64,000 nt of DNA from Eubacterium maltosivorans (GTDB taxonomy: Bacteria > Bacillota > Clostridia > Eubacteriales > Eubacteriaceae), in the NCBI RefSeq assembly GCF_002441855.2, contig NZ_CP029487.1:1798001-1862000 (forward strand), given 5' to 3'. The translations under genes and the position numbers were made by a program. The notes beneath the pieces are model-generated. The model searched no databases. It saw nothing but the letters and a program-made list of their open reading frames with translations, and was not told the DNA's origin. Shown here in pieces: positions 28,313-48,664 of the stretch; the first letter of the stretch is position 1, and each line of letters begins with the position of its first letter.

Positions 28313-28771
28313 TTATGCTCCCGCGATTACTGCCACTATCCCCAAAAGGATTGTAGACACATCAATCAGCAGTGTCATGATCGAGAGCGCCTTAAATGTT
28401 TTTTGATAATATAATTTATTGACCATTAACAGCCCAATAGACAATACTTCCGTCACACAAACCAGCCCGATGTAAAGATTAAGTACCGTGCTGCTGGATT
28501 GTATTACAAAGGACAGGGGGTACGTGATAAAAAAGGCGCCTGAAAAACTAAATAGCATCATATAAAAGGCGATCCATTCCAGTCTGGGAGCTGGCTTGTG
28601 TCCCACGTTCTGCCAGGCGTCAATCACGTTCAGCCTTTTCTGTGATATTCTTGCAATTTCAGAATCCGGAGCCTTTTTCTGTAATCTTTTATACAGATGG
28701 CTGGCTTTTTTATAGTCACCGTGTTGTTCCAGCTTTTGGGCATTTTCAAGTATATCTTCTAATTGAAACAT
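28313..28771 (-). CDS. Small membrane protein with TPR-like N-terminus
   Basis: This 152-residue protein (SD CAGGAGG) begins with a TPR-like helical pair (ILENAQKLEQHGDYKKASHL, YKRLQKKAPDSEIARISQK), then has three hydrophobic segments between about residues 67 and 150. It lies 14 bp downstream of the GDPD-dockerin gene and is probably co-transcribed with it. No catalytic motif is visible. A role in assembly or secretion of the large surface proteins is possible but is only a neighbourhood guess. Confidence 0.6.
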   Translation of the reverse strand: MFQLEDILENAQKLEQHGDYKKASHLYKRLQKKAPDSEIARISQKRLNVIDAWQNVGHKPAPRLEWIAFYMMLFSFSGAFFITYPLSFVIQSSSTVLNLYIGLVCVTEVLSIGLLMVNKLYYQKTFKALSIMTLLIDVSTILLGIVAVIAGA

Positions 28772-28785
28772 TTTTCCTCCTGTAA

Positions 28786-31700
28786 CTAAAAATGCATCTT
28801 AATGTCCGCAGAATATTGAGCAATTTTTTGCGCATCGATAATATTAAGTTTTTGATCAAAATTGACATCCCCTAATACTTTCTCTGCATTGGAGGGTGTC
28901 TCACTAGATGCTGTCATTTGGGCAATTCGCTGGGCATCAATAATATTGATCTTTTTGTCTTCTGTAAAATCACCAAGTTTCCCACATTTTGCTTTAGCCG
29001 TTAATGCGTTATCGTCGGCACCTATTGTATAACTTCCTGAATAGCCTTTTTGATCCTTGATCTGTTCGAGATGCACCAACTTTCCATTGATGAGCAATTC
29101 ATATGGTACATAGACCTCCCGCTTATCAGCAATACCAAAACAATAGGTCAGCACATCGCCCTTCTGAGCCGATGCACCAGCCTGAATGGGCGTACCGTTA
29201 CATAAAACAGATAACACCATCCCCTCTGCCGCTTCCGGGCTTAGGCCGGTTTCGATCTCAGGAATTCGAATCATCTCTGATGCGTTAATTATTAAATTTG
29301 CAGTCAAGCTTTCTGGTTCGGCGATGTGATTAGCATCCGTCAAAAACTGCGCTGTTACAAGGTAATCCCCTCTGCTTTTCGGTGGAACAAATTGCGGTGT
29401 ACTTTCCCCTTTTTTTAGATAACAGTACTCAACACCAATACCTTCTGGAAGCGTTCCCTTCACCGACATAGCTTGTGGTGTTCCATCTTCAAAAACAGTT
29501 TTGTCCTCAAAAACTACTCCGTCAATCTGAATAGCCTTTGGGAAAATTGTCGCAATAATTCCACTCAAATCCAACTCATAGTTCACAGCATCAGTTCCCG
29601 TTAGGGTAAGTCCATTTACACGAACTATTTTATCAGTTCCAGCATCCGGGTCTATAAATTCCATATCCGCAATTCCTGATAACTGGACGTCTGTTCCGGC
29701 GGCCAGATCCTCCCTGTTAATAAACGGATAGGCTTCCAGCTCAGCGCTCACACTACCATCATAAACCTTATCTTTTATGCTGATAACAGGTTTAAGAAGA
29801 GTCTTATTAGTCAACTCAACGCTTATGCGTATTGTCTTATCCTCTTCCCGTACACTGGCCCATGACGGTACTTCAACACTTCCTTCAAAAACAAAAGGCT
29901 TTTCTAACACGGTTTTTCCAAAATCTTTTGGTACTTCAGTTATCCATTGGATACCTGCACTTTTTTCATTTCCGACAATATTTACACCTTCTGGATAAAG
30001 CATTTGAACATTTTCGGGCAGTCCAATGGCTGCATAGCTCTCATAGCCACCCTCATAAACCGTTTTAATAATATCCTGAAGTGGCCTTAACTGAATTTCT
30101 ACAGGAGAGACCTTGATGGACTGTTCAAACACGTTTTCTTTAAATTTTAATTGATAGACATATTCGCCTCCTTTAGGTTGATAGCTTGATTCGGTCGTCC
30201 ATTGCAGCCCCAGCTCTTCTGCACTTCCTACTTCCACGGTATGATCAATATAGATTCCCTTGATCATTGTATTCATATTAATATAAGCCCTGAGCGAATC
30301 AGCAGATTTATTGGCAACGCTATTGGCGTAAACCTCATAATTTTTTCCTTCACCGACGTATTCAATTCGGTCTAATACATTCTTAACCGTTAATTGAATC
30401 TGTGCTGTTCTCCGGTTACTGCTGGCGATGCCTGGTTCTTTTGGGATGGCCGTGATTTTCATTTCTGTTGTACCGGCTTTGACCGGTATTCCTGTAATCT
30501 CACCATTTTCATTAAACTGCATTCCTTCGGGCAAAGGTGTTTCTTCAGATAGCTCATAACGGAAAAGATCATTCTCCATTGAGACATCTCCTCTATACTC
30601 CTGACCAATGGTCGCATCTAAAAGGGTTGGCGCATATGAAAAGGGCATTACAGTCACTGGATCGCTCTCAATTCCCCAAAATTCTTCTGACTCGTCAATA
30701 AATGTTTTAAAATCATAAATTTTTTCGCTGGTCATTCCCTGAAATACATACTCATTTTGACCCGAGACAACAGCCTGGCTTTCGCCAATCTGATTACTTG
30801 TTCCATGCTCAAAGGGGGCTAAAAAAATATTTGCACCATGGTCTGTACCATCCAACATCAAAGTCACTTGATTTTCCGAAAAAGCTATTAACGCAAGATT
30901 GCCAAGCTGCTGCGCTTCTCTTTCTTGTTTCAAAGCGACATCGGGTATATCAAAGGTAAATCCCTGGCTATAAGTGAGCTTCGCGTTATGATTTACATAG
31001 TTTTGTGTCTCGCCATTAAGGATGGCTGTAACCAGCTGCCCGTCCGGCATTTCTTTAGTCCATAAAGAAACTTTTCCATCAACGGCACAAAGGTTGTTTT
31101 TAAAATGTTTATCACCGATCTGGATTTCCTGAACTGGAAAATTTTCAGTTTTATTGCCAAAAACAAAAGTTGCAGGGTAAACATTATCCCCTTCACTGTT
31201 TTTCGCTTTTACAGACATCTTCTCATTCACGACCTGAAGCTCTCCGTCATCAATCACTATATCAAGTGTATTGCTTTCAGAAGCACCAATATCCTGTATA
31301 GCTGGATTAGCCGATTGCGTTTGAGCCCGTACACTCCCACCAGAAATCTTCAGCTTAAGCATATTATTTGTGGCCGGTTCAATTTTTACATCTGCATTGT
31401 TTTTATTCATTTCGGATACGCCGATGGCAGGCGACTCCGTCTGAACTGTTGCGCTGTCCGAAGATACCGCGTCAATTGAACCGCCAGAAAGGTTAAGTTC
31501 AAAAAGGGTATTTTTTGAAAACATCCCAATTCCAACTGGCGAGGCGCCGCCTTTGGAATCTGTTCCGATATTCTTTGCCGATACGTTTCCTCCATTCATA
31601 TTGAATAAAACTTTTTTAGATAACGTGTCTTGCTCGGCATGGTTTCCGGAGCCAATACCAATAACCGGTGCCTGGCCGCTTGTTGTCCCACTGATTGTTC

Positions 31701-34680
31701 CGTCATGAACATTTAGCTCCACAATTTCTTTTCCCAAATTGACTGTACTGTCTGCGGTTGCTCCATTAATCCAGCAGCCAGACGTTCCTATACCCGCGCC
31801 GCCATAGGCAGATGTAATACTCAAAGCTGCGCCTGAACCTTCTGGAATATTACATACAACATGCTGGTTGCCCGGATTGCCGTAGCCTGTTCCGATGGCA
31901 GCACCAGAACGAATGATCTCACCTCCGAACTGATTATTTTCAGACTGGGTCTGAGCCTTAACATCACCACCGTTAAGGTTAACGGTAACAGTACTGCTTT
32001 CTCCCGCGTCTCCTAAACCAGGCGTGCCAATGGCTGCCCCCATTCCTGTTGTCATTGCAGAAACCTTTCCGCCATTTACATTAAATACGAGTTCAGAATT
32101 CTGTGTCGCCCCAATAGCCGGTGCGTTATCTTTTGATTTTACATCAAGAACTCCTGACATCAAATCCAGTTTTGCACTTGATGAAGCATTAGCACCAACA
32201 AGTGCTTTTTGGTACGCTTTTCCGTTTTTCTCTGTTCCCTGTGTCAGAATCAGTGTTCCATCTGTACTGTCAAAATTTTTGATAATGCTCTCAGAACCAT
32301 TTCCTAGCTCAAATGCACTTGATTCCGCATTAACCTCTTCAATGTAATTTGTTCCCTTGACCATCAATGTTAATGTGGCATGCTCACCAACCATGATACC
32401 AGAAGCAACAGAGGCAAGCTGGTTAATATTATCGAGAATAACAGTGGCTTTTGCGCCATTCGCTATTGTGATCCCATAAGGTGTCGGCTCATTTACTTTA
32501 GACTGGTATACACGAACCATGTCGCCATCATTCACCCTTACATCTCCCACACTTAAATCAAAGGTTTTGTCTTGTCTGCCAAGAATATAGTCCGCATTCA
32601 AGCGTTCCGGTGAAAAAAGCACATTATAATTTTTATGGATATTTGAATCGTCTGTTGTAATTGAAAAAGCAGCATTGTTAATCTGCGTTTCAATATTTGA
32701 TTCGCCGTCAACAGTCCAGACATTCGTAGCTATCCCCCGGTGTCTCAGAGCATACATTTGCGCCTTATTAACGCCGCCGTAGTTAGGATCAAAAGCTGCT
32801 CCGAGCTTTCCGACAGATTTCATAACCTGATAGACAGCCTCGCTGGTGCTATTTCCAGAATGCGACGAAAGATAACCTAGACCAATGCCAGGCATCGTTT
32901 TTCCCATGTTGCTGATCTGACTCGCATTAAAACTAATCACTACAATTCGGTCCTCTACGCCCTTTTGTTCAGCTAAGTTTTTTATCATCTGTGCTACTTC
33001 TGGCTTTGATGTCTTAATCTCGACCACCAAAATCATTTCTGGAAACTCATTGACCATTGTGTCAAAGAGTTCATCCAGTGTTGCGAATTTACAATTGCTG
33101 TATTGGCCCGTTTTTTTTAGGGTATAGGACTTCAGTTGAGCCAACGTCATCGATTCAACGTTTCCCCTTGCAGAGCTGGTGGTATATCCGCTGATATCAC
33201 CATTATGATTAACGATCAACCGTTGATCACTTGTAATATATACGTCACATTCAACAGCCTCAACGCCGGCCCATCCAGCTTCTCTCAGTGATTCCACGGT
33301 ATTTTCCGGAGCTGCTTTTGGGTAGCCACGATGCCCGATAAAAGGCGTTTTGCGGCAATAAACATTTTTACCGTCAACAAGCTCATATAACCGATAGACT
33401 GCTTCTGCATTTTTTACCACGATGCCGTTTGCACCATTATCCATTGCACCTCTTGTCATTTCTTCATCATCCGCCTGATTATCCATTAGCCAGACTGACA
33501 GAAAACGACTCTGCAAGTATTCAACAGACGCCCGGCTTATCGATTTTGGTACCATAGCAATGGAGGCTTTCGAGGTATGCGTAATACTTGAAATCGCCTC
33601 TTCTCCTTCGAGTGTTTGAAACTTACGAATGGTTCGAATAGCCGACGGCTCTTCTTCATAAATGTATTGAAGCACCTCATTGCTCTCAGAAACTGCCATT
33701 AAATCAAACTCGCCATTAAAACGCACATATTCTATCAGGGCTTTAGCTTCCTCTATATTATCCACTAAAAAAGCAGGTATAACCTTTTTTCCACAGAGTT
33801 CGAATCCTTGCCGCAAGTCCATTGGCGTTTCAGCATTTAAACGAATTTTTAATGCATTGTTCTGAAGTACCAAATCAAACAGAGCAACCTGCGGTGGTTT
33901 ACTACCTGAAAGCTTTGAAATATCCACCGGTTCATCAATTTGCGAGACAACAGTTGGGGCTGCGACAATTCCAGTATTTGGCTCATATACCTCCTTAATT
34001 TTATCAGCTTCACTTGGAATCGAGTCTGGCAATGGCTGGGTTTCCTTTAAACGCACACCATAAACACGCGCCTTGCACCCATTTGTCTGAAGCGCAAACT
34101 TTCCGTTTTCACCAGAAGAAACATTATCATAAAGAATCATCGGCTTAGAATCAATAGATTCCATGACTTTATTTCCATTTACAATAGCCTGAGCGGTGTA
34201 TACTTTACCCGCCTCAATAAAATGATCGTAGCTTGCTGTACTTACCACATTCCAGTCATAACCAGATGTTCTGTATGCCACCTCGACGCCGTTACTCGCT
34301 GTGGCGTCCTGACGAATACACATATTCATATATGGAGCCGGATCCGATCCACTACCTTGAAGATGGTACATCAAAGAAAACCACCGGCTACTGTTATTCG
34401 CCTCTGTTATTGTAAAATCTGCTTCGTAAGTAAAATTACTATTTGTCTGATTTTCAGGCAGACAAAGAATTGTATCTTTTTCCAGTTCAAGGTAACCATT
34501 TTTTATACTGGCACTCCCTTTATAAACACTCCACCCATCCGGAAGCGGATTACCTTCCTCGCTTTGGGTAAAATCAATGCTGTATTCCGGCTCTGCTGCT
34601 TTGCTGGGAATACTTGTCAACAACAGGACAGATATTACACACAGCACAAAGCAAGCGATCCTTTTTAAATATATTATCAT
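28786..34680 (-). CDS. Giant secreted dockerin protein with glycerophosphodiesterase domain
   Basis: This 1964-residue protein has a signal peptide (CFVLCVISVLLLTSIPSKAA). Domain order is: jelly-roll/LamG-like (about 36-215); linker; GDPD (about 445-690; FIGHRGYPKAAPENT, AVECDVYITSDQRLIVNHNG, LVVEIKTS); beta-helix-like GAAIGT/NGG repeats (about 730-1170); Ig-like and He_PIG-type domain (about 1340-1450); two beta-sandwich modules with the KVYDG motif near 1640; and a C-terminal dockerin (about 1905-1964). The dockerin's two calcium repeats are GDFTEDKKINIIDAQRIAQ and GDVNFDQKLNIIDAQKIAQ. The GDPD has HN where the family usually has HD. It should be secreted and held on the surface through the cohesin protein of this locus. 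GDPD could act on phosphodiesters such as teichoic-acid-like polymers (inference). Confidence 0.85.
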   Translation of the reverse strand: MIIYLKRIACFVLCVISVLLLTSIPSKAAEPEYSIDFTQSEEGNPLPDGWSVYKGSASIKNGYLELEKDTILCLPENQTNSNFTYEADFTITEANNSSRWFSLMYHLQGSGSDPAPYMNMCIRQDATASNGVEVAYRTSGYDWNVVSTASYDHFIEAGKVYTAQAIVNGNKVMESIDSKPMILYDNVSSGENGKFALQTNGCKARVYGVRLKETQPLPDSIPSEADKIKEVYEPNTGIVAAPTVVSQIDEPVDISKLSGSKPPQVALFDLVLQNNALKIRLNAETPMDLRQGFELCGKKVIPAFLVDNIEEAKALIEYVRFNGEFDLMAVSESNEVLQYIYEEEPSAIRTIRKFQTLEGEEAISSITHTSKASIAMVPKSISRASVEYLQSRFLSVWLMDNQADDEEMTRGAMDNGANGIVVKNAEAVYRLYELVDGKNVYCRKTPFIGHRGYPKAAPENTVESLREAGWAGVEAVECDVYITSDQRLIVNHNGDISGYTTSSARGNVESMTLAQLKSYTLKKTGQYSNCKFATLDELFDTMVNEFPEMILVVEIKTSKPEVAQMIKNLAEQKGVEDRIVVISFNASQISNMGKTMPGIGLGYLSSHSGNSTSEAVYQVMKSVGKLGAAFDPNYGGVNKAQMYALRHRGIATNVWTVDGESNIETQINNAAFSITTDDSNIHKNYNVLFSPERLNADYILGRQDKTFDLSVGDVRVNDGDMVRVYQSKVNEPTPYGITIANGAKATVILDNINQLASVASGIMVGEHATLTLMVKGTNYIEEVNAESSAFELGNGSESIIKNFDSTDGTLILTQGTEKNGKAYQKALVGANASSSAKLDLMSGVLDVKSKDNAPAIGATQNSELVFNVNGGKVSAMTTGMGAAIGTPGLGDAGESSTVTVNLNGGDVKAQTQSENNQFGGEIIRSGAAIGTGYGNPGNQHVVCNIPEGSGAALSITSAYGGAGIGTSGCWINGATADSTVNLGKEIVELNVHDGTISGTTSGQAPVIGIGSGNHAEQDTLSKKVLFNMNGGNVSAKNIGTDSKGGASPVGIGMFSKNTLFELNLSGGSIDAVSSDSATVQTESPAIGVSEMNKNNADVKIEPATNNMLKLKISGGSVRAQTQSANPAIQDIGASESNTLDIVIDDGELQVVNEKMSVKAKNSEGDNVYPATFVFGNKTENFPVQEIQIGDKHFKNNLCAVDGKVSLWTKEMPDGQLVTAILNGETQNYVNHNAKLTYSQGFTFDIPDVALKQEREAQQLGNLALIAFSENQVTLMLDGTDHGANIFLAPFEHGTSNQIGESQAVVSGQNEYVFQGMTSEKIYDFKTFIDESEEFWGIESDPVTVMPFSYAPTLLDATIGQEYRGDVSMENDLFRYELSEETPLPEGMQFNENGEITGIPVKAGTTEMKITAIPKEPGIASSNRRTAQIQLTVKNVLDRIEYVGEGKNYEVYANSVANKSADSLRAYINMNTMIKGIYIDHTVEVGSAEELGLQWTTESSYQPKGGEYVYQLKFKENVFEQSIKVSPVEIQLRPLQDIIKTVYEGGYESYAAIGLPENVQMLYPEGVNIVGNEKSAGIQWITEVPKDFGKTVLEKPFVFEGSVEVPSWASVREEDKTIRISVELTNKTLLKPVISIKDKVYDGSVSAELEAYPFINREDLAAGTDVQLSGIADMEFIDPDAGTDKIVRVNGLTLTGTDAVNYELDLSGIIATIFPKAIQIDGVVFEDKTVFEDGTPQAMSVKGTLPEGIGVEYCYLKKGESTPQFVPPKSRGDYLVTAQFLTDANHIAEPESLTANLIINASEMIRIPEIETGLSPEAAEGMVLSVLCNGTPIQAGASAQKGDVLTYCFGIADKREVYVPYELLINGKLVHLEQIKDQKGYSGSYTIGADDNALTAKAKCGKLGDFTEDKKINIIDAQRIAQMTASSETPSNAEKVLGDVNFDQKLNIIDAQKIAQYSADIKMHF

Positions 34681-34698
34681 ATCATCACTTTTCCTATG

Positions 34699-35391
34699 TC
34701 ATTCCTTCACAATTTCAAAATAGGTTTGCTGCTCAACCGGCACGAGAACGCTCTTTCCCAATGTTTGGATATTACCTTCATATAATTTTTCTTTCAGCCG
34801 CTGAACCTTGTCCAGATGGGATCCATTAATTTTACCAATGACTGCTTCCAGTTTTTCCAGATCATCATACTGAACCACCATTTCATTCACTTCTTCTTTT
34901 ACACGGATGACCCTTAAGGTACACTGTTTTTTTCCTTTGGGTTTTTCCCGGTTGCAGAGCTCATTATATTTTTTTATAATTTTTGTAATGCTTCCTTTAA
35001 ACTCGGGGTAAAGAGTAATGTCGATTCCTTTAGCCATGGCCCTCCGAAGCCACTGGATATTGGTCAATGGCAGACTTACGTCAGCAATCAGACTTATATC
35101 CAGACCAGCTTCGAGGCCAAGTCTCAGCTCTCTTGCTTTTGCCGCACCCAGCTCAGGATTACGCAAAAGCGTATCGTCCAACCCCTGCGCCTGCACCCTG
35201 AAAATCTCAGTCAGCTGTCCGCCGCTGTATTCTGGGGCCGCGGTTTCCAGCACATTTGCACCTGCGCACAATCCATAATTAATGGCTACATACTGCTGGC
35301 TATTGAAAGTATATCCCTTTTCTTTTTTTAAAATATTTAAAGTACTTTCCATATCAGGATGCTCTTGATTTGTCACATATCTTCGACGCAT
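34699..35391 (-). CDS. Hypothetical helical-repeat protein
   Basis: This 230-residue protein starts at ATG 35391 (SD AGGAG, 10-nt spacing; an earlier GTG is too close to the SD). The middle third carries degenerate leucine-rich helical repeats, each about 24 residues: LTEIFRVQAQGLDDTLLRNP, ARELRLGLEAGLDISLIADV, WLRRAMAKGIDITLYPEF. Similar GLD-containing repeats occur in Lachnospiraceae accessory proteins. The N-terminus is basic and the C-terminus is helical and charged. No signal peptide. It lies between two giant dockerin genes, 18 bp before the GDPD one. Function unknown. Confidence 0.6.
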   Translation of the reverse strand: MRRRYVTNQEHPDMESTLNILKKEKGYTFNSQQYVAINYGLCAGANVLETAAPEYSGGQLTEIFRVQAQGLDDTLLRNPELGAAKARELRLGLEAGLDISLIADVSLPLTNIQWLRRAMAKGIDITLYPEFKGSITKIIKKYNELCNREKPKGKKQCTLRVIRVKEEVNEMVVQYDDLEKLEAVIGKINGSHLDKVQRLKEKLYEGNIQTLGKSVLVPVEQQTYFEIVKE

Positions 35392-35415
35392 TCTTATCAC
35401 ACTCCTAACTATCTG

Positions 35416-35697
35416 TCACCATTCATTTTCAGATATATTTCCTGCCATACACATACAACACATAATGATAAGAGTGGTTATAAAGCTTAGCAGACTCAAT
35501 AAAAAAATACCAATACCTTTAAAAGCGAAAAAGCCTGCTGCCATTGCATTAACAAAGGTAAACACTCCTGTTATGCGTCTGTATTTTGAACTTTTGCTGT
35601 TATTTCTTAAGTTTTGATAAACAGCCAGCCCCATCCCTGCAAATCCTGACAGTATCATACCTACTAAACCGATTAACATCTTAAACCCCACTTTCAT
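35416..35697 (-). CDS. Small two-helix membrane protein
   Basis: This protein has about 93 residues from ATG 35697 (an upstream GTG at 35712 is also possible; neither has a clear SD). It has hydrophobic segments at about residues 3-25 (FKMLIGLVGMILSGFAGMG) and 50-85 (AMAAGFFAFKGIGIFLLSLL, then a Cys/Met-rich CCMCMAG). No family recognised. It begins the small operon that leads to the 230-aa gene and the GDPD-dockerin gene. Confidence 0.5.
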   Translation of the reverse strand: MKVGFKMLIGLVGMILSGFAGMGLAVYQNLRNNSKSSKYRRITGVFTFVNAMAAGFFAFKGIGIFLLSLLSFITTLIIMCCMCMAGNISENEW

Positions 35698-35724
35698 AAA
35701 CAATCTACGCACAAAAACGCAGCT

Positions 35725-35755
35725 GCCGATGCTGTTTAAAGAGCATCGACAGGTA
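35725..35755 (-). terminator. Weak terminator-like hairpin after the 2285-aa dockerin gene
   Basis: On the minus strand TGTCGATGCT and AGCATCGGCA form a stem around CTTTAAAC; TTTTTG follows a few bases later. Confidence 0.5.
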
Positions 35756-35771
35756 CATTATAGAATTAAAT

Positions 35772-38700: not shown

Positions 38701-41700
38701 TCCGCCGCTTCAGCCGAAGCCGTAACGGTTTTGTCACCAGGCTGAACTGTATATTCATAATACCAGGTACGTTTCTGGTCTCGCGCTTTTTTCATCCCTT
38801 CTGTTGTTTCTGAGAGAGCCAGCTCCTGCCCCTTAAAAGTAAAGTGCATGGTATGCGCGTCGCAATAGGTGATTTTATAAGTCACCTTATCTCCTGCTGC
38901 TGCCTCCAGTAAACTGGTTATCTTCTTATTCGCGGCGTCGTAAAGCTCAACACTGCACCCCTGACCGGCAGCACAGTCGCCAAAAATATCCAGCACTGGT
39001 GCAATTACCGCCACCTTGGTGCTTTCTGACGCGCTGGCCGCAGAAGCGTCTGACGCGTTTGTATTTCCTGTTGCGCCCACTCTGGCATAAAATGTATAGG
39101 CTGTTCCAGGTTCGAGGCCGGTAAAGACCGGGCTGGTCTGCCAGTTGATCTTATCCTGGCTGTACTGTGCTTTGGCGCCTGCCGCCAGCGCTGTAGGATC
39201 TGTTATTTCCACAGGCTTTAAAGCAATACGGGTAGAAGTGGTTTGGGAAACATCCACAACCGGCGCTGCCGGCGCTGCGCTGACGCTTGCCTTTGTAATT
39301 TCACCCATAAGCTTTGAAGCGGCCCAGTCAATGATGTATTTATCTGCGTCAGCGCCCGAAAGAGCATTACCTGTTACATTGACGGTTTTGTTGGCGCCAA
39401 CGCTGGCATCCTCAAATTCAGCCGTTAAACTGGCGCTTTTATTAAAGCTTACGTCAGCGCCCGCAGCAGCGCCGACTAACGCCGCACTCGTTAAATCCAA
39501 TTCGGCTGTTTTAGTGCCATCATAAGCTTTAGGTTTAACGGTAATGCCCGTTACGGTGAGCGGCGCAGCTGTTTTATATTCAGCCGTAACTTCTGCAGCC
39601 CCGGAAACGGTTGCCCAATCTGGAAGTGTGACCATTCCGGTAAAAGTTTTTTCTGCAGCCGATCCCCCTTTGGTGCCAAAATCTCCTGGTGACTGCGGAT
39701 TCCAGCTTACCGGGCAATCCATAGCATCAACGCTCTGGTCAAAGGTTACCTTCACGGTACTGCCCAATCCCAGTTCTTCCATAGTATAGGCCTCATCCCG
39801 GATAGCGATGGTTTTGGCGGCAATAACAGGCATTGTCGCAGTGACCTTATCAACCGTTACGCTCATTGTTGTTGTCTTTGCCGGGCTGCTGACCAGTGTC
39901 CCATTGTAGGCGTAGGTGCCGCCTTTTATGTCCCAGCTGCTGCTCTCGTCCAAAACCCATTGCACGGATTCTTCGCCGCTGGCTCCGTTATCATAAACTG
40001 CCTGAACCGTCTGAGGCAGGCTTTGCTCCAAAGCCTGCTGGCTGGCGTTTTTGGGATCATTGGCGTTCATCGTGACCGCTGTTGGGGCTGTGACCGTACT
40101 GATTGTCCGACTGCTAAAGCTTGCCTCCGCTTTGATAACCGTATCCTGGTCTGTAACCGTATAGTCTGCGGTATAGGTGCTGACGCCGGTTGGATCCTGC
40201 GCACCTTTTGTCAATGCAACAGCCTGTCCGTTAACCTTCAGGCCATCTGCCTCGGCCACCGTATAATTTTCGGATGGCTTCACAGTGTAAGTCACTTTTT
40301 CTCCAGCTTTGGCGTGGGTCGTGCTCGCGGTAATGGTACAGCCCGCATCATTTTTTCCAGCCCCGGCCTTGGTTGGTTCACTCACCTGAGCGTCGGTTTT
40401 AGCAGTGTCGGACGCCTGGCTTGCAGGTGAGGCCGCATTATTGCTGCTCTCTGCATAGCGGGCGTAGAACTGATAGCTGGTTCCAGGCTTTAGGCCGATA
40501 AAGGTTCCGCTTGTCTGCCAGACAGCCGGGGCCTGGCTGTCTTCGGCACAGGCGTACTCCAGACGGTAGCCATCCGCCGGGTCTGCAACACTGACCTCAG
40601 CACTGGCATCCGTGACTGAAGCGGGCACTACGGTCGGTTTATCCGGCGCGGCAACATTCACCTGTTTGGTGATCGTCGTGCTTAAGCCGCTAAAGTCCAG
40701 AACATATTTGTCCGCTTCTGGCCCACTGATAGACAGGTCTTCAACCGAAGCAATGGTACGTTTTCCAACATTGGCGCTGTCCAGATGAATGACCGGGCTG
40801 CTGCCAGACAGCGTGTAGCCCTCCAGCGGTGAGCCATCACACAATAGGGTCATAAAGCTAAGCCCATCTTTATTCCAGTTGGCTACAGTCGTACCATCGT
40901 AAGCTTTGCTGTAAAGCACCAGGCCTTCTACCTTAACAGGGGTGCCAAAGGTGATCTCCCGGCTCACTGCCGTGCTGTTTACAGTCGCCCATTCCGGTAT
41001 AGCCACCGTTCCCGTAAACACCTGCCGGTCTGTCTGTTTTGCCCCGAAATTCGCAGGAACTGAGGGGCTCCAGTTTACTGCTGCATTGTCTGTCACTGTT
41101 TCGAAGCCTGTCCCGCTGTAGGTAACCTCAAGGGTATCCTTCAGTCCCAGATCGGCCATAGTGTAGCCCCCTGATTTTACAGGCAGCTTTTCATCTTTTA
41201 ATGGTTCAAAGGCTGCGTTTACCGCGAGTACGCGCAGGGCCTGTGTTGCGGTCACATCGCCTAAAAGCGCCTCATAGGTGTACTCGCCCCCCTTTATTTT
41301 AAAGGTCTGGCCCTTTTTCATCTGCCAGTGCGCGTCGACTTCGCCGGTTGTCTTATTATCATAAGTTACGCGTACCTTTGAATCCAGGCTTGCCGCCAGG
41401 GCTTCGGCGCTTGTGTTGGCGGCGTCATTGGCATACAGTGTCTTTGCCCCCAACGTGTCCGCTGCTTTTACACTGCGGTTGTTAAAATGCACCACAGCAT
41501 TGATTGTGGTGTCACTTTCTTTAACCGTGTAGGAAAAGACCGCTGTTCTGTTTTCGGGATCTACCTGAGCCGCATCGATGGACAGCTCGGTTCCGCCAAT
41601 GGTCATGCTTGGCGTATAGCCCTCTGCATAGGAAACCGTATAGGTAATGCTTTCTGCCAGGTCCGCTTCGTTTTTATCCACCTTAACCGTGTTAGCGCTG

Positions 41701-42629
41701 TCGGACTGTCCCGGACCGTCCTTTGTGGCAGGCGCCACCACACTTTTAGTTCGAAGCTCCTGGCTGTCAGTGCCAGATTTAAAAGCTTCATCGGTAGCGG
41801 CAGTATAACTGATCAGGTTGTAGGTTGTTCCCGGCTGCAGACCCGTAACCCTACCGCCGTTAATGGTCTTGGGTATCAGCTGGCTGCCGCCGGTATACTG
41901 GTAAACGCCCAGCGCATCAGGGGTGAAGCTGAAGCCGCTGGTGGTACGGGTAACCCTGTCTGCAGGCACGGCCGTGGTGTTCTCAGGACGTGACTTAATC
42001 GCATAAGCGGCGGCTTCCCCTTCCGGGATCTCCCCCTTTTTAACGGCGCGAATATAAAGCGACTTGCCAATAAAAGCAGAAATCACATCACCGCTTTTTA
42101 TAGGATCGCCTTTAAAATCCGAAACGGTATTCATTTCATACCCCGGGCTAATGGTGATTGTTTCCTCAGGATAGCTGATCGCCGCACAGCTCTCTGGGGT
42201 GCTTGGTGCTGCCTGAAGGGTATAATAACTGGCTGCCGGGCTCGGATTATTGCCATTACTGTCGGCAGAGCATTGAAAGCTATAAGCCGTTCCGGCTTCT
42301 AAACCCTCAAACACAATGGTGCCGCCAGATGCCTGTTTCCAGACTTCCGCTGTTCCTCCATCGCGTTTATAGGCAGTGTAGTACAAGCTATCAGTGCTGT
42401 TCAGCGTTACCGATGTACTGGTACGGCTTGCAAGAGTTGGAGCGGCCTGTTCCGCCGTTAATGCCACCCCTTTCTGCATCTGTCTGGTATCATCACCACC
42501 ACTTAAGACATCTGTCGGCAGTGCCTCCTGAGCCAGGGTGGTCGCCCCAGTGGAGCTGAGAAGCATCACCCCGGACATCATCCCAGCGGCGAGTTTTTGC
42601 GAAACTTCTTTTGTTTTTCTTTTCTTCAT
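35772..42629 (-). CDS. Giant secreted repeat protein with C-terminal dockerin
   Basis: This 2285-residue protein starts at ATG 42629 (SD AAAAGGAGAA) with a signal peptide (KLAAGMMSGVMLLSSTGATT). An FN3-like domain (about 57-135) precedes four copies of a module of about 465 residues. Each module contains a Big-type domain with an ANDxxN motif (about 398, 856, 1325, 1792), two linker beta-sandwiches, a YDG domain (SKAYDG, PKAYDG, TKVYDG, DKVYDG at about 573, 1035, 1508, 1972) and an FN3-like domain (G-L-x-P-G-T-x-Y). MBG-type domains follow, then the dockerin (about 2225-2285) with calcium repeats GSFNGDSTINIIDAQQIAQ and GDVNFDNKVNIIDAQQIAQ. No enzymatic domain was seen. It is probably a long stalk or adhesin displayed through the cohesin protein. 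Confidence 0.85.
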   Translation of the reverse strand: MKKRKTKEVSQKLAAGMMSGVMLLSSTGATTLAQEALPTDVLSGGDDTRQMQKGVALTAEQAAPTLASRTSTSVTLNSTDSLYYTAYKRDGGTAEVWKQASGGTIVFEGLEAGTAYSFQCSADSNGNNPSPAASYYTLQAAPSTPESCAAISYPEETITISPGYEMNTVSDFKGDPIKSGDVISAFIGKSLYIRAVKKGEIPEGEAAAYAIKSRPENTTAVPADRVTRTTSGFSFTPDALGVYQYTGGSQLIPKTINGGRVTGLQPGTTYNLISYTAATDEAFKSGTDSQELRTKSVVAPATKDGPGQSDSANTVKVDKNEADLAESITYTVSYAEGYTPSMTIGGTELSIDAAQVDPENRTAVFSYTVKESDTTINAVVHFNNRSVKAADTLGAKTLYANDAANTSAEALAASLDSKVRVTYDNKTTGEVDAHWQMKKGQTFKIKGGEYTYEALLGDVTATQALRVLAVNAAFEPLKDEKLPVKSGGYTMADLGLKDTLEVTYSGTGFETVTDNAAVNWSPSVPANFGAKQTDRQVFTGTVAIPEWATVNSTAVSREITFGTPVKVEGLVLYSKAYDGTTVANWNKDGLSFMTLLCDGSPLEGYTLSGSSPVIHLDSANVGKRTIASVEDLSISGPEADKYVLDFSGLSTTITKQVNVAAPDKPTVVPASVTDASAEVSVADPADGYRLEYACAEDSQAPAVWQTSGTFIGLKPGTSYQFYARYAESSNNAASPASQASDTAKTDAQVSEPTKAGAGKNDAGCTITASTTHAKAGEKVTYTVKPSENYTVAEADGLKVNGQAVALTKGAQDPTGVSTYTADYTVTDQDTVIKAEASFSSRTISTVTAPTAVTMNANDPKNASQQALEQSLPQTVQAVYDNGASGEESVQWVLDESSSWDIKGGTYAYNGTLVSSPAKTTTMSVTVDKVTATMPVIAAKTIAIRDEAYTMEELGLGSTVKVTFDQSVDAMDCPVSWNPQSPGDFGTKGGSAAEKTFTGMVTLPDWATVSGAAEVTAEYKTAAPLTVTGITVKPKAYDGTKTAELDLTSAALVGAAAGADVSFNKSASLTAEFEDASVGANKTVNVTGNALSGADADKYIIDWAASKLMGEITKASVSAAPAAPVVDVSQTTSTRIALKPVEITDPTALAAGAKAQYSQDKINWQTSPVFTGLEPGTAYTFYARVGATGNTNASDASAASASESTKVAVIAPVLDIFGDCAAGQGCSVELYDAANKKITSLLEAAAGDKVTYKITYCDAHTMHFTFKGQELALSETTEGMKKARDQKRTWYYEYTVQPGDKTVTASAEAAEKSVKEITAEPIIMAANDVRNQSLENIEKALPKFVQFEYDNGTEGTDSIKSWSLKNGEWDIKGSDLTYVGTLTNNTKAKVTQVVKVEPVTAEIETTVGKITIKEKPEGYTLAELESEGLPTTASIRYDNYVDIRDKTAAIIWQLPEDFGKVAKDPAEITGKAVLPEWATAATDVMQASFTVTARQQAKLIIDPADITKVYDGSTVIENVPVRLDESTLDADHKKVALSGETATVRFQTPNAGTGLNYSVEGLTLTGEDEAWYSLTSNYKDGVITQAQIEAPGAPSVADISLKSIALKPVELDGPAKASGAKVIYQISSDNGKNYGDNADKYSPVFKNLDPGKAYSFRAIVEATANTEASEPGMALEVRTKFNPVLPIIAKTSPCAGDAECQIEMTDAQGRTITEKSEVGAGDVIHYTVTSCDHHTPGRLLINSKTEVALSGTDKVRTGAYTITGEDSQLISQITFNDRQAVRVESPDPIEMYANDDRNQSADDLAGCLPKEVAVIYDNGTQGAEAISKWNPSGMTWNPRGGDYIYVAAVGAGGQFFALQNVTVKPVSAAYEPFADTTLPTREMPYTWQELGLLDTIAVTYTSEDGTIKETKDEPLVWTPDVPEDFGTAEATQTFTAKLALPAYAGGEKVLTKTVRVSEKSALVIRGVKAQDKVYDGTADAVLDFSQATFTGDPGFGSYTVDWDQATGAFEDANAGDSKKVTVEGIVLSGQDADHYILSVEQVSASIKKAEITGVVFENARFPEDGATHSLKAVYPEDCGITGVSYTYEKDGVKTTEAPKAAGTYTVTASFTVDDNHQAKAPMTATMVIGEAGGTVEDPVVEGLPEGVTGCTVTADKDHVTEAGEVVTYTVTRNQDRKSYVPAVMTVNGQALTLTYDRAAGSYQAVYVAEDPTVSVTATVQYVLLGSFNGDSTINIIDAQQIAQAVAAGQTPSAVQKAAGDVNFDNKVNIIDAQQIAQYTADPEKKF

Positions 42630-42776
42630 AGATGATTTCTCCTTTTATTGTCAGATCCCATATGCAATGAAGGCGGGCGCGCATTTTGCCTTTCCAAAAT
42701 GGCTGCAAAATCCAACGTCCGCCCACTTGCTGCTAATTATTAAATTGCCTTGTCATAGAATTTCGTGTTTTGTGTT

Positions 42777-42803
42777 CTGGAAAGGGGGAGTTCCCCTTTC
42801 CGG
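42777..42803 (-). terminator. Hairpin downstream of the cohesin gene
   Basis: On the minus strand GGAAAGGGG pairs with CCCCCTTTCC around a short loop. There is no T-run, so termination activity is uncertain. Confidence 0.4.
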
Positions 42804-42885
42804 TGTGCTTAAATGTTTTGTGTAATGTTGTGTGTAATAATAAATAGATGTTTAATGTATCAGTTTTTTGTTTTTTAAATGTTGG

Positions 42886-44349
42886 CTAGTTCATCTTTTT
42901 TCTCATACGGAATACCTTGATCCCAGAGACGGCTAAGATGGCCAGGCCAGTGGTTAAGAAACCAAAGCCGTTCACTTCATCCTGTGTGAAGTTCAAACCT
43001 GTTACTGGGTTTTTAACATTGGATGCCGCTGCACCGCCGTTGTTCTGTCCGCCGTCAGTTCCATCCGTTGTTCCGCCACCAGCCTGGGCCTCTGCAACGG
43101 TAATTTTAAATTCAATGGATTTTCCGCCATAGGTTGCGGTTAAAGTCTGTTCGCCGGCTTTTGTTTTGTCATAGCCTGTGATTTCAGCATCGGATAATGG
43201 CAGCTCACGGACGGCTTCGCCATCGTTGATGGTGGCTTTCATCATGCCGCCTTCCAGGTTTGGCAACTCGTCCCCAACGGTGGTTTTTCCAGTCGGTGCC
43301 TGGATCAGTTCCAGAGCGGTAACTGTGGCTGCTTTAATGTTGATGGTAAAAGCGTTTTCCAGCTTCTGTCCGCCAAATTCAATGGCGACCGGAACCGCTT
43401 CGCCTACCTGATTCATGTCAACAATAGCAGTAGCCTGAGCCATATCCACTTCAACGTCGCCTGCCTGTTCATAGGTAACGGTTAATTTACCGCCAGCTAA
43501 ATCGATGGCGTCGCCCTGGAGATAATCTGTTTTGGTCGGCGCTGCTGCAACAGCCAATGCTTTAACGGTGTCTGCCTTAACGGTCACATCGGCAGAGTCT
43601 TTAAAGCCGCCTTCTTCTGTGGTCGCGGTAATGCTGGCAGTACCTGCTGCAATGGCGGTCACTTTGCCGTCTGCATCTACGGTTGCGACAGCTTCGTCAG
43701 AGGAAGACCAGCTAACGTTCTGGTTATCCGCATCTGCTGGCGCAACAGCAGCAGTTGCCTGCGCGCTCTGGCCTGGGAACAGTTCAGAAGCGTCTAAGGA
43801 AACCGCTACACCGGTTACTGGTACCGGAGCCGGCGGCGCTTCAGTAATGTTTACCGCTGTCGCGGTTCCGTTGGAATTTGCAGTAATTTCTTCAGCAGCA
43901 CCATTAGCTACAACTAAAGGCTTCATATCCAGGCCAGCGCTGCCCGCTGCACCGTCTTTTACTTTAAAGGTAGCCGTAAACAAATCTGTTGTAGACTCGA
44001 TCGGGTCAACACCAAACCAATTGGCATAAACGCCGGTAGAACCGCCGCCGCCATTAGGGGCAAATACAATGATGTAAGCAGATTTAGTAGTGTCCACCAC
44101 CTCTACCTTATCATGATCATATTCCAGCGCTGCCTCGTAAGAACCCACAGTTGGGTCCGGTGTTACTGAAACAGACACGGTAAAGGTGTCGCCCGGATGC
44201 ACCTCTGTTTTATCAGCAACAGCTGAAAAGGTTGCAGAATCCCCTGCGGCTTTCGCCTGCGGCATTATTCCTGGAATAGCCGCTGATGCAAGCAGGCTGA
44301 ACCCTAAAAATCCGGCAATCAGTCTACTTGAAAGTGTTTTTGATTTCAT
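42886..44349 (-). CDS. Cell-wall-anchored cohesin protein (mini-scaffoldin)
   Basis: This 487-residue protein starts at ATG 44349 (SD AAGGAGGAAAAT). After a signal peptide (LIAGFLGFSLLASAAIPGIM) a cohesin domain covers about 38-170: VHPGDTFTVSVSVTPDPTVG, SYEAALEYDHDKVEVVDTT, LFTATFKVKDGAAGSAGL, the classic cohesin strand pattern. A Big_2 domain follows (about 180-260; VSWSSSDEAVATVDADGKVT), then two more Ig-like domains (about 262-420) and a Gly/Thr/Asn linker. The end is NPVTG, a hydrophobic stretch (FGFLTTGLAILAVSGIKVF) and RMRKKMN, a sortase-type wall-sorting signal of variant motif. It has one cohesin only. It lies between dockerin genes on both sides and should recruit their products to the surface. 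Confidence 0.85.
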   Translation of the reverse strand: MKSKTLSSRLIAGFLGFSLLASAAIPGIMPQAKAAGDSATFSAVADKTEVHPGDTFTVSVSVTPDPTVGSYEAALEYDHDKVEVVDTTKSAYIIVFAPNGGGGSTGVYANWFGVDPIESTTDLFTATFKVKDGAAGSAGLDMKPLVVANGAAEEITANSNGTATAVNITEAPPAPVPVTGVAVSLDASELFPGQSAQATAAVAPADADNQNVSWSSSDEAVATVDADGKVTAIAAGTASITATTEEGGFKDSADVTVKADTVKALAVAAAPTKTDYLQGDAIDLAGGKLTVTYEQAGDVEVDMAQATAIVDMNQVGEAVPVAIEFGGQKLENAFTINIKAATVTALELIQAPTGKTTVGDELPNLEGGMMKATINDGEAVRELPLSDAEITGYDKTKAGEQTLTATYGGKSIEFKITVAEAQAGGGTTDGTDGGQNNGGAAASNVKNPVTGLNFTQDEVNGFGFLTTGLAILAVSGIKVFRMRKKMN

Positions 44350-44467
44350 ATTTTCCTCCTTATATGAAAATGAATAAATTTATATTAAGTGCGCGGCGCT
44401 TATCCGCGCACTTAACGACCTTAATTGCTATGTTTTAAATATTGAGTGTCTATTGGTTTTTTAAAGC

Positions 44468-47400
44468 TTAAAAGATCATATTGACATCTGCTGCGTACTG
44501 CGCAATTCTCTGGGCATCGATAATATTGACCTTGCCGTCAAAGTTCACATCGCCGCTTGCCTGCTTAACAGCCTCCTGGGCTCCGCCAGATGCAGATGCC
44601 TGAGCGACCTGCTGCGCGTCGATAATGTTAATCTTGTCATCGCCGCTGAAGTTTCCTAATAAAACACACTTGGCATCCGCCTTAAGCGCTGTATCGCCTT
44701 CCTTGACAGTATATTCCGCACTGTAGCCTTTACCTTCGGCCAATTTTACCAGGGGAATGCTTTCACCGTTCATGGTAAAGCTATAAGGAACGTAAGCGTT
44801 ACGGACATCCGCAGCGCTCAGCTGATAGGTGAGTGTGTCACCCACTGCCACGGTGTCGCCAATCTGGATGGCTTCACCGTTTTTCAGAACAACTGCGTTC
44901 ATACCAGCTGCCTGTTCCTCAGTTAATCCTGTGGTGATTTCTTCAAGAACAAGGCCCTCACTCTTAGCTTCAATCACAAGCTTTGCACTCATGGTCTGTG
45001 GTTCCACCACATGGTTGGCGTCGGTTTTAAAAGCTGCTGTAACTGTGTAGGTTCCTGCAGCACTTGGTGGCAGCTCAACGGCTTCGCTTGCGCCCTCTCT
45101 CAGATAACTGTAGCTTACGCTTACACCTTCTGGCAGTGTCCCCTTAATTTCAATGGTCTGGGTATTACCGTCCTCGGTCACTGTTTTGTCTTCCATGCTA
45201 ATACCGGAAAGGGTGATGGCCGCCGGGGTAATGTTACCTGTGGCCTGGCTGAAATCTAAGATATATTTTCCAGCATCTGAACCTGTTAAGCTTAGTCCGC
45301 TGACTTTAACCGGGATGTTCTTTCCGGCGTCAGCCGAAACGAATTCAGCCTTTGGAATACCGGATAACTGGACGTCGGCTCCCTCGGTCAGCGCTTCGGG
45401 ATCTAAAGCTGGTGTTTCCTTAAAATTGGCGGATTTCGTTCCGTCATAAACTTTATCCTCAATCGAAATCACTGGGGATAAAACCACTCTGTCACTGATG
45501 TTGACATTGACAGAAACCGCATCGCTCCCAATAGTTGCCCATACTGGCACAGCAGCGCTTCCTTCAAATACCACCGGTGCTACGGTTGCTGTTTTACCAA
45601 AGTTTTCCGGAATCTCTGTGCTCCAGCTAATGGCAAGCTCACGATCTGCACTGTTTACAGATACACCGGCCTGATAGGTGCATCCAATAGTTTCTGGCAG
45701 GCCTAGCTCGGCAATGGTCGAATAACCTTCGGCGTTTACAGGAAGTATCACATCATTTAAGGTGTTAAGCTCTGCTGTCACCGTATTAACAGTTACCGCT
45801 TGTGTAACGTTGCTGTCACTGGCAGATACGCTGTACTGGTAGGTACCGCCTTTAGGTGAAAAGACCGTGTTCGTGGCCCATCCCAAACCGAGCTTACTGG
45901 CTTTACCGATTTTTTCTTCACCATCGTTATAAGTCGCTTTTAAAACAATCTGGTTATTAACAAACGCTTTTAGCTGGGCTGCGCTCTCATTTTTTTCATC
46001 ATTTGCAAAAAGGGTAAGGTTCTTTTCATCGCCAACGCGTTCAATTTTAGTAATTCTTTTTTCACTTTCAGTCATAAAGGCTTTCATGTTCAGCTCGGTA
46101 TCCTCTGCCTTTACAACATAAGAGTAGGTGAATTTACCTGACCCTGTTGTGGCCTGAACATCATTGGCATTCAGGTTAAACTTGACAAAATCGTGCAGCG
46201 GACAGGGTATTGCTGTAAATAAAACCGTATCTCCCACCGCGGCGTTCCCATTAACGGCGGTGCTGGTCACTTCACAGCCGCAGCTTAAAGGCTGGCCTGC
46301 CAAATCTACAGCAGAGACAGTCACTTTCACCGGTTCCACCTTCAGGCTTACCGATGCGGTCCGGCTGTTATTGGCAGCAATGCCTTCATCGGTTGCGGTT
46401 GCTATAACATCAAAGGTAAAGGTACCCGCCTGTGTTGGTGTTCCTGAAAGGGCGCCGTTTGTGCTAAACGATAAGCCTTCGGGTAATACCGCCCCGTCTG
46501 CCAGCGCGTAGGTAAAACTGCCGCCTTCAATGGCCACACTGGCCTGGTAAGCGCCTTTCAATTTTGCGTTTGGCAGGCTTGGTGCGTACTCAAAGGGTTT
46601 GACAACCAGCGCTTCTTTTTGAGTCCGCCAGTAACTGTCATTTTCATTAACCAATGCTTTAATATCGTAGAGCTTGTTTTTTGTCAGCCCGCTAAAGGTA
46701 TATTCAGATTTACCGGCTTCGTAGGCTTGGGCCTGTCCAACGGGTGTACTGGCGCCATGCTCAAAGGCCTGGAGCATCACTGGCGCATCTGCCGTAACGC
46801 CATCCACTTGCATGGTGACACTGTTTTCCGCAATGCTTTTAATGCTAGAGCTTCCCAACTCTTCAGGGCTGGTGGTCTTCTTTAAAACCACATTTGGCTC
46901 TGCAAAAGTAAAGCCACTGTTATAAGCCAGGTTTATCTTTTGACTTGTATAGGCTTTTGGATCATTTTCGGCTGTTGCCGTAAAGACTTTGTTCTGACCT
47001 GGTGTGGTCCATAAATAGAGCTTTCCAGACTGGGCAGTCAAATCTTTTCCGTAGTCTTTACTGTCGATGGCTGCATTTTGTACTTTTGTCTTTTCTTCTG
47101 TGATTCCACCGATACTGACAGTTGCGGGGTAGACATTTTGATTTTGGCTGTTCTTAGCCGTTACATCCATTCTTTGATTTACAGCGTTTAAGGATCCACC
47201 GTCTACTTTAACATTAAAGGTATTGTTTGCGATGGTTCCTATATCTGGAATGCTCGTATCCGTTGACCGCGTTTCAGCGTTAATGGTTCCGCCTGTAACA
47301 TTGAGGTTAAAGGTGTTATTCTTGGCATTCTCTGTTGTTATCGTCGTGTTTTCTTTATATTTTCCAGCAATTCCGATTGCGGGTGTATTAACAGGAATAC

Positions 47401-48664
47401 CTTTTTCATCATCCATAGAAAGGCTGCTGATAAGACCACCCGAAATATTACAATCGAACGCTGCCTTTTGAGTGAACAGGCCAATACCAATACCTGGTCC
47501 GCGTCCATTATTTGTTGAAGCATCATTTACAGTCTCGATATTACCGCCTGAAATATCCACCTTTACTTTTTGGTCTGCGGCTGCGCCTGCACCTACGCCA
47601 ATGCCTGGCGCCTGTCCGGCAACTACAATTTTGGTGTTCCCACCCGCAATATTCGCTTCGACATACTCACTCGTAGATGTATTACCGTTAGGGGTACCCG
47701 TTTGGCTGTTCCAGCTACCAGAACCTCCAATAGCGGCTCCGCCATAAGCGCTGGTTAAATTAAGATCTGCGGTAGAATCCGCTGGAATATTGAGTGTAAC
47801 TTTTTGTTTTGCGTAACCGCCATAACCTGTTCCGATTACAGCGCCGCCTCTTTTTTTCCCTGGTTCTGGTGAAACATCTCTTGTATAGTTGCCACCGATT
47901 ACTTTTCCACCATTAATGGTTACATTAACAGTATTTTCCTGGTTTGCAGGTACATCCCCCTGGGTACCAATTGCGGCGCCCCAGCCTTCCGTTTGAGCTT
48001 CAACAGTTCCTCCATTAATTGTTAAATCCAGTGTTGAACCGCCATCTTTGTCATTTCCTGCAGTTGCGCCAATGGCCGGTGCATAATCCCGCGAAACTGC
48101 TTTAACAGATCCAGAATTAATGGTTAACGCGGAATGAGACTGAGCGCTCGCGCCAAGAATAACATTCTTCATTTGTTGATCTTCGGGTATTTGAGCAGAT
48201 ACCTCCACTTCTCCATCGTTATTACCATAATCTTCTATGATGCATTGTGCCCCATCCTGCAAATAAAATGTACTGGAACCATTATGCGAACATTTTAGGA
48301 TATTCTTCCCTTTCAGCAGTACTGTCGCTTCGGCATTTTTTTTGATTCTCACCGGACTAGAAGTTTTTCCAACTTCAGAACTTTGCACTACATTCAACTT
48401 TTCCAGAATAACCGTTGCAGTAGCATTTTCTTCAACATCAACATTATATTCTGCTGTCGGCGTCGTCTGGTATACACGAACTACCTCTCCATTCTTTACA
48501 CTTACGTTTCCTTTGCTTATATCCGCCGATCTTGTCTCTGTAACCCCGGCGGCTCTTGCCTCTTTTCCTTCCAACATCAAAGTTGGCAGCAAAAGCAGCA
48601 TACTAAAAAACAGAATGGTCAATGTTTTTAAAAAATGCTTTCTTTTATCCATTTGTTTCTCCAT
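44468..48664 (-). CDS. Giant secreted dockerin protein with beta-helix-like repeats
   Basis: This 1398-residue protein starts at ATG 48664 (SD GAAAGGAG). The signal peptide spans LTILFFSMLLLLPTLMLEG to ARAAG. Residues 40-560 are beta-helix-like repeats rich in NGG, PAIG and GAAIGT units, the same kind as in the GDPD-dockerin protein but without the GDPD domain. He_PIG-type Ig (about 690-790), a module with FANDEKN (about 885), a YDG domain (DKVYDG near 1070) and an MBG-like domain follow. The dockerin (about 1340-1398) has calcium repeats GNFSGDDKINIIDAQQVAQ and GDVNFDGKVNIIDAQRIAQ. It is the first gene of the dockerin/cohesin run, about 120 bp upstream of the cohesin gene. It is clearly paralogous to the 1964-aa protein. 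Confidence 0.85.
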   Translation of the reverse strand: MEKQMDKRKHFLKTLTILFFSMLLLLPTLMLEGKEARAAGVTETRSADISKGNVSVKNGEVVRVYQTTPTAEYNVDVEENATATVILEKLNVVQSSEVGKTSSPVRIKKNAEATVLLKGKNILKCSHNGSSTFYLQDGAQCIIEDYGNNDGEVEVSAQIPEDQQMKNVILGASAQSHSALTINSGSVKAVSRDYAPAIGATAGNDKDGGSTLDLTINGGTVEAQTEGWGAAIGTQGDVPANQENTVNVTINGGKVIGGNYTRDVSPEPGKKRGGAVIGTGYGGYAKQKVTLNIPADSTADLNLTSAYGGAAIGGSGSWNSQTGTPNGNTSTSEYVEANIAGGNTKIVVAGQAPGIGVGAGAAADQKVKVDISGGNIETVNDASTNNGRGPGIGIGLFTQKAAFDCNISGGLISSLSMDDEKGIPVNTPAIGIAGKYKENTTITTENAKNNTFNLNVTGGTINAETRSTDTSIPDIGTIANNTFNVKVDGGSLNAVNQRMDVTAKNSQNQNVYPATVSIGGITEEKTKVQNAAIDSKDYGKDLTAQSGKLYLWTTPGQNKVFTATAENDPKAYTSQKINLAYNSGFTFAEPNVVLKKTTSPEELGSSSIKSIAENSVTMQVDGVTADAPVMLQAFEHGASTPVGQAQAYEAGKSEYTFSGLTKNKLYDIKALVNENDSYWRTQKEALVVKPFEYAPSLPNAKLKGAYQASVAIEGGSFTYALADGAVLPEGLSFSTNGALSGTPTQAGTFTFDVIATATDEGIAANNSRTASVSLKVEPVKVTVSAVDLAGQPLSCGCEVTSTAVNGNAAVGDTVLFTAIPCPLHDFVKFNLNANDVQATTGSGKFTYSYVVKAEDTELNMKAFMTESEKRITKIERVGDEKNLTLFANDEKNESAAQLKAFVNNQIVLKATYNDGEEKIGKASKLGLGWATNTVFSPKGGTYQYSVSASDSNVTQAVTVNTVTAELNTLNDVILPVNAEGYSTIAELGLPETIGCTYQAGVSVNSADRELAISWSTEIPENFGKTATVAPVVFEGSAAVPVWATIGSDAVSVNVNISDRVVLSPVISIEDKVYDGTKSANFKETPALDPEALTEGADVQLSGIPKAEFVSADAGKNIPVKVSGLSLTGSDAGKYILDFSQATGNITPAAITLSGISMEDKTVTEDGNTQTIEIKGTLPEGVSVSYSYLREGASEAVELPPSAAGTYTVTAAFKTDANHVVEPQTMSAKLVIEAKSEGLVLEEITTGLTEEQAAGMNAVVLKNGEAIQIGDTVAVGDTLTYQLSAADVRNAYVPYSFTMNGESIPLVKLAEGKGYSAEYTVKEGDTALKADAKCVLLGNFSGDDKINIIDAQQVAQASASGGAQEAVKQASGDVNFDGKVNIIDAQRIAQYAADVNMIF

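Follow-up and report, generated by a model that had tools for sequence, protein, structure and literature searches.

The DNA analysed here, referred to as the window, is a stretch of 64,000 nucleotides from Eubacterium maltosivorans, a gut acetogen related to Eubacterium limosum. It covers positions 1798001–1862000 of a complete 4.34-Mb chromosome (genome G000). On its minus strand lies a group of genes, cluster A, which encodes one protein with a cohesin domain and a sortase-type tail, here called the anchor protein, and three large secreted proteins (A1, A2 and A3) which each end in a dockerin (Table 1). Two other cohesin loci of the same genome are named clusters B and C, the allele of cluster B in genomes G002 and G003 is named B2, and cluster D is a locus of G002. 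Domains were called with the curated Pfam cut-offs (24.1 bits for PF00963, cohesin; 22.9 bits for PF00404, dockerin; 26.8 bits for PF06439).

The anchor protein comprises 487 residues and is 82% identical to a protein of Eubacterium callanderi FD. PF00963 matches residues 44–157 with 41.2 bits, within the interval (residues 38–170) where the original prediction, made from the sequence alone, had placed a cohesin. The AlphaFold model of this domain was computed from two sequences and is of moderate confidence (predicted local distance difference test, pLDDT, 69; predicted template-modelling score, pTM, 0.68). It displays nine strands, in line with the jelly-roll fold of cohesins, and its best matches in the PDB are solved cohesins (E = 1.2e-7, probability 1.00, TM-score 0.5–0.63), among them the non-cellulosomal cohesins of Clostridium perfringens and Archaeoglobus fulgidus (2xdh). 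Furthermore, a profile built on 13 related cohesins matches the solved cohesins of CipC, NagJ and ScaB by sequence. All the features of a sortase substrate are present: a signal peptide, an [L/N]PxTG-like motif, a hydrophobic segment and a basic tail. The expected secreted one-cohesin protein with a sortase-type tail is hence supported by profile, fold and tail motif. Four sortases are encoded in the genome, none of them near the locus.

The neighbouring proteins of 1398, 2285 and 1964 residues were proposed to end in two-loop dockerins, and the profile search agrees: each one carries a type I dockerin with two calcium loop-helix repeats (28.7–36.2 bits against 22.9), so that the cohesin and all three dockerins lie above their curated cut-offs. 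In canonical dockerins the calcium ligands are D1, N/D3, D5, N/D9 and D12. D5, N9 and D12 are found in six of six loops, while A1 and A2 have N or S at position 1 of their first loop. The recognition motif that was thought to be common to the six repeats is indeed so, since all of them read NIIDAQxxAQ. The GDPD (glycerophosphodiester phosphodiesterase) domain of A3 suggests glycerophosphodiesters as substrates, with teichoic acids or the head groups of phospholipids as possible targets. For the beta-solenoid-like region of A1, a fold search of the PDB gave no significant match, Ag43 and tailspike-type solenoids ranking best at E >= 0.014, and a PDB sequence search for solenoid relatives found none. 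The statement that no partner carries a glycoside hydrolase is only nearly exact: the four proteins contain no clear one, but A3 has a marginal match to PF06439 (3-keto-disaccharide hydrolase; 27.1 vs 26.8 bits). With no multi-cohesin scaffoldin, no carbohydrate-binding module (CBM) and no clear glycoside hydrolase, the architecture is non-cellulosomal, as anticipated.

Table 1. Features of cluster A and its surroundings (positions in the window).
Feature	Position	Strand	Support or remark
152-aa gene at the other cluster end	28313..28771	-	no Pfam match; synteny kept
A3, 1964 aa: jelly-roll-like N-terminus, GDPD, beta-solenoid-like region, YDG, C-terminal dockerin	28786..34680	-	
Dockerin of A3	28813..28977	-	PF00404 28.7 bits
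Glycerophosphodiester phosphodiesterase domain of A3	32647..33333	-	PF03009 E=3.2e-23; solved GDPD relatives; HRG, ECD and later motifs readable
233-aa gene	34699..35400	-	no Pfam match; syntenic in three genomes
98-aa small membrane-protein-like gene	35416..35712	-	synteny kept
Terminator-like hairpin, 11-bp stem, just after A2	35723..35752	-	strongest minus-strand candidate in the scanned region; overall hit count at chance level
A2, 2285 aa: FN3, four YDG, Big_4 stalk, C-terminal dockerin	35772..42629	-	
Dockerin of A2	35799..35954	-	PF00404 36.2 bits
Anchor protein, 487 aa: signal peptide, one N-terminal cohesin, Big_2, two Big_3, NPVTG sorting signal	42886..44349	-	
Sortase-type tail: NPVTG (aa 447), hydrophobic stretch, RMRKKMN	42889..43011	-	
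Cohesin domain	43876..44220	-	PF00963 E=2.5e-10; same place in genome search; top PDB fold matches are cohesins
A1, 1398 aa: beta-solenoid-like N-terminal part, He_PIG, YDG, C-terminal dockerin	44468..48664	-	
Dockerin of A1	44495..44647	-	PF00404 31.3 bits
Beta-solenoid-like region of A1	46865..48547	-	homologous to 30886-32583 of A3; AlphaFold pLDDT 80.9, pTM 0.84
HD-domain protein accompanying cluster A	49004..49618	-	PF13487 E=3e-24; synteny in G000, G001 and G002
Tyrosine recombinase (phage-integrase family) accompanying cluster A	49711..50763	-	PF00589 E=2.2e-33

The original prediction of a one-cohesin system holds for the window locus; the genome contains two further clusters, which add two cohesin genes and two strong dockerin genes. 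In all, G000 encodes three cohesin genes with one cohesin match each and five dockerins above cut-off. Each cohesin gene has dockerin genes as neighbours: three in cluster A, one in cluster B (near 2.06 Mb) and one in cluster C (near 3.20 Mb). Cluster B carries a FIVAR-dockerin combination. It lies (L010, G000:C1:2052000-2071000) directly in front of genes for a DUF4430 protein, an energy-coupling factor (ECF) S-component and a CbiQ-like protein, and this position suggests a surface system linked to the uptake of a vitamin, perhaps a corrinoid. In cluster C (L011, L056), three to four tandem paralogous secreted proteins of 206–223 residues and a large protein lie upstream; those tested have no Pfam match. 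Cluster D (L058-L060, G002:C1:2448000-2495000) is more populated, with two cohesin genes and at least 10 dockerin proteins in one 31-kb array; these proteins carry BspA-type LRR, transglutaminase, C-type lectin or RCC1 domains.

In classical systems, dockerin specificity is set by loop positions 10-11 and 17-18. These positions read II/AQ in cluster A, [GA]L/MQ in B, AR/MR or QK in B2, [AS]Q/KR in C and mostly [AS]S/LR in D, and the two loops within one dockerin usually agree. This pattern suggests that the clusters are separate, private pairings: because the recognition residues differ between clusters, each anchor is expected to hold its own partners only.

A further locus of G000 deserves mention. 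Near 1195315 of G000:C1, a 1745-residue M60-peptidase protein (L012:1867-7104) contains a sub-threshold internal dockerin. Its gene is followed by that of a 248-residue NPSTG-tailed protein (L012:1110-1856) which was considered as a diverged cohesin; profile comparison gave this assignment a probability of 0.3% and no Pfam match was found. The arrangement is conserved in the genus. The genome holds three, perhaps four, cohesin loci.

Comparison between genomes informs on how one cohesin could serve three partners. In G001, whose cohesin protein of cluster A is identical in sequence to that of E. callanderi FD, D9 and L18 occur in the first dockerin loop of each of the three partners, whereas N9 and Q18 are the usual residues in the other two genomes. 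The G001 cohesin of cluster A also differs from those of the other genomes, and the place of the GDPD protein is taken by an unrelated third partner that has a PLAT domain and carries its dockerin internally. One altered loop in three different genes fits co-adaptation to a single cohesin, which strengthens the case that the three partners are served by one cohesin. The further proposal that the partners compete or alternate for display is not supported, as one cohesin gene is not one cohesin molecule. The cell can make many, and a mixed display set by relative amounts would be the simpler expectation.

The placement of the two halves of the connector recurs in other loci. In the window, the dockerin gene lies directly upstream of the cohesin gene on the same strand and the two domains are separated by 275 nt. 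A dockerin stands directly upstream of the cohesin for 9 of 11 cohesins in the genus, 8 of 9 in the order and 14 of 47 in the class; they are not corrected for shared ancestry or for contig breaks. In the order set, from which two many-module genomes (G021 and G029) were left out, all eight cohesin-bearing, non-cellulosomal-looking genomes outside the genus have a dockerin gene directly before a cohesin gene. The dockerin lies within 800 nt upstream for eight cohesins and the ninth has a dockerin gene 2.5 kb upstream. The effectors include SpoIID, glucosaminidase and subtilase proteins. The class set consists of 46 Clostridia genomes in which the first threshold gave one cohesin each; 11 of them have no dockerin match at threshold. 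Here, the 14 cohesins with a same-strand dockerin at most 800 nt upstream come from 13 genomes, when about 0.01 would be expected by chance, and the genes of 13 of these 14 pairs are at most 86 nt apart or overlap. Their anchors are of sortase, transmembrane or SLH type, and their effectors include LRR, phosphoesterase, F5/8-type and transglutaminase proteins. The dockerin-then-cohesin arrangement is common in Clostridia.

In clusters A, B and C, the upstream gene finishes with the dockerin and the downstream gene starts with the cohesin, so that the coding segments for both halves adjoin. In cluster C, the two halves have diverged together. Between G000 and G002, which represent two Eubacterium species, the DNA is ~92% identical outside one island. 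The best-fit island (L011 8517-9242, 726 bp) shows 37.9% mismatch inside vs 8.2% outside (log-likelihood gain 182); its start falls 10 nt into the dockerin domain and its end coincides with that of the cohesin. Differences at fourfold degenerate sites amount to 14% in the effector body, 7/11 in the dockerin, 20/37 in the signal peptide plus cohesin and 28% in the stalk. Since synonymous-type sites are affected too, the island points to a tract from a divergent donor rather than to amino-acid selection alone. Cluster B offers a second comparison: between the G000 and G002 alleles (B vs B2), the FIVAR stalk is 89% identical in protein sequence, the adjacent cohesin 22% and the neighbouring dockerin 39%. 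The converse is found within B2, where dockerin and cohesin of G002 and G003 share 88-96% DNA identity and much of the effector body only 47-75%. The tail of the cluster B anchor also varies (L010 vs L057): beyond the conserved FIVAR stalk, a second tract has diverged, and within it the tail reads NANTG in one allele and NPVTG in the other.

For cluster A itself, a cassette exchange was considered and is not supported. The cohesin is 69-71% and the stalk 89-90% identical in protein sequence between genomes, and the nonsynonymous divergence (dN) is 0.20-0.25 vs 0.06-0.07. This locus displays only a faster protein change, as explained below. As controls for the island of cluster C, the pairs G063/G066 and G016/G017 showed no comparable sharp island; they are much more diverged and hence weak controls.

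We consider, with a probability of roughly three in four, that the sortase-anchored cohesin retains the three secreted proteins through their matching dockerins as a mixed surface coat, by means of a private, non-cellulosomal connector. The 487-residue protein would be secreted and attached to the wall by a housekeeping sortase acting on NPVTG, presenting one cohesin on an Ig-like stalk. The beta-solenoid-like A1, the Ig/YDG stalk A2 and the GDPD protein A3 would be secreted likewise and retained non-covalently. With identical recognition residues, each of the three could dock into this one kind of cohesin, and the mixture on the surface would be set by relative expression; the anchors of other clusters would hold only their own partners. 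As the halves lie side by side, the dockerin at the end of one gene and the cohesin at the start of the next, one recombination tract could replace both together, which the cluster B and C comparisons fit. A wider reading, to which we give somewhat less than an even chance, is that Clostridia possess many insulated two-gene connectors in which recombination can swap either both halves, yielding a new and matched specificity, or the effector alone. Such connectors would act as a plug and socket that can be shuffled to vary the surface, and would keep neighbours from capturing one another's secreted proteins.

Several observations weigh against the main interpretation. NPVTG differs from the classical LPXTG motif, and the genus-level comparison is a small sample of four cohesin-bearing Eubacterium genomes. 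The exchange in cluster C left the putative contact residues almost as they were and need not have changed specificity. The difference between B and B2 runs through the whole upstream region and not the pair alone, so that the tract is larger than the dockerin-cohesin pair. In cluster A, fourfold divergence is similar in cohesin (53%) and stalk (45%).

This last observation, together with the raised dN of the cluster A cohesin, is what could be expected if the dockerins and cohesins of the sister loci had diverged by accelerated point evolution under diversifying selection, with no exchange of pairs. We find this unlikely as an account of those loci, given that the fourfold differences of cluster C rise between sharp edges at the dockerin start and the cohesin end, and that the poorly conserved cohesin of cluster B sits beside a well conserved stalk.

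Two other explanations concern the function of the locus. The anchor protein could be a small scaffoldin for substrate-degrading enzymes in a minimal cellulosome-like or mucinolysome-like complex. Single-cohesin sortase-anchored scaffoldins are known, namely ScaE of Ruminococcus flavefaciens (PMC4081043) and cSca5 of the Limousia mucinolysome (PMC12997984); A3 combines a GDPD domain with the marginal PF06439 match, and the M60 peptidase is joined to a weak dockerin in another gene of the genome. However, the three cohesin genes have a single match each, which leaves one cohesin per anchor and no multi-cohesin scaffoldin, the four window proteins lack a CBM or a clear glycoside hydrolase, and two of the three partners are without an enzyme domain. 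A degradative complex therefore appears quite improbable. It is less probable still that the dockerin proteins bind another cohesin or none, their adjacency reflecting only a shared island of surface proteins. Some C. perfringens cohesin/dockerin pairs are negative by enzyme-linked immunosorbent assay (cited in PMC12997984), and the N or S, rather than D, at calcium position 1 in the first loops of A1 and A2 could point the same way. Against this stand the upstream dockerins at genus, order and class level, far beyond chance in the class set, and the motif which is shared inside each cluster and different between clusters.

The surroundings of cluster A indicate a mobile setting. The HD-domain gene and the tyrosine recombinase precede the cluster in G000, G001 and G002. 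In G000 and G002 it adjoins a conserved U32-peptidase-like gene (51274-52509 in the window). G001 has a different integrase, HD gene and large gene at this site, and its cluster A is located elsewhere. Because the cluster has its own integrase and occupies two different sites among these genomes, it probably resides on an integrative island. Relatives on plasmids were searched for and none was found.

Research on cohesins and dockerins has centred on cellulosomes. Here, in bacteria that are not cellulolytic, the connector seems to tether large surface proteins on a general, one-to-few basis, and a genome can encode several connectors. If they are private, the pairs would constitute ready-made orthogonal connectors for protein engineering. 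The allele comparison of cluster C, in which the displayed protein and the stalk are nearly constant and the connector has changed on both sides at once, makes it directly testable how two binding partners can change and still fit each other. In the open-access literature searched, with incomplete coverage so that a prior description is possible, neither the joint exchange of dockerin and cohesin nor the breadth of the two-gene arrangement was found described.

Among known systems, NagJ/NagH and NanJ of C. perfringens resemble the present one in that few cohesins occur without a cellulosome; the cohesin profile and fold match NagJ, and the FIVAR-dockerin combination of cluster B recurs there. 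However, the C. perfringens modules join glycosidases to each other, whereas here an enzyme-free sortase-type anchor faces stalk, solenoid and GDPD partners. A. fulgidus likewise possesses a few-module, non-cellulosomal pair, whose cohesin (2xdh) is among the fold matches; its system is archaeal and is not known to have a sortase anchor. ScaE of R. flavefaciens shares one cohesin with a C-terminal sortase signal (PMC4081043) but anchors a cellulosome-bearing scaffoldin, while the effectors of cluster A would dock directly with no scaffoldin in between. The ScaC cohesin of that species also differs sharply between close strains (PMC4081043), although its joint replacement with the partner dockerin is not described in the passages considered. 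Lastly, cSca5 of the Limousia mucinolysome, from a gut Clostridium, likewise has an N-terminal cohesin, with an LPxTG anchor (PMC12997984); in contrast to cluster A, it belongs to a multi-enzyme mucin-degrading complex with several scaffoldins.

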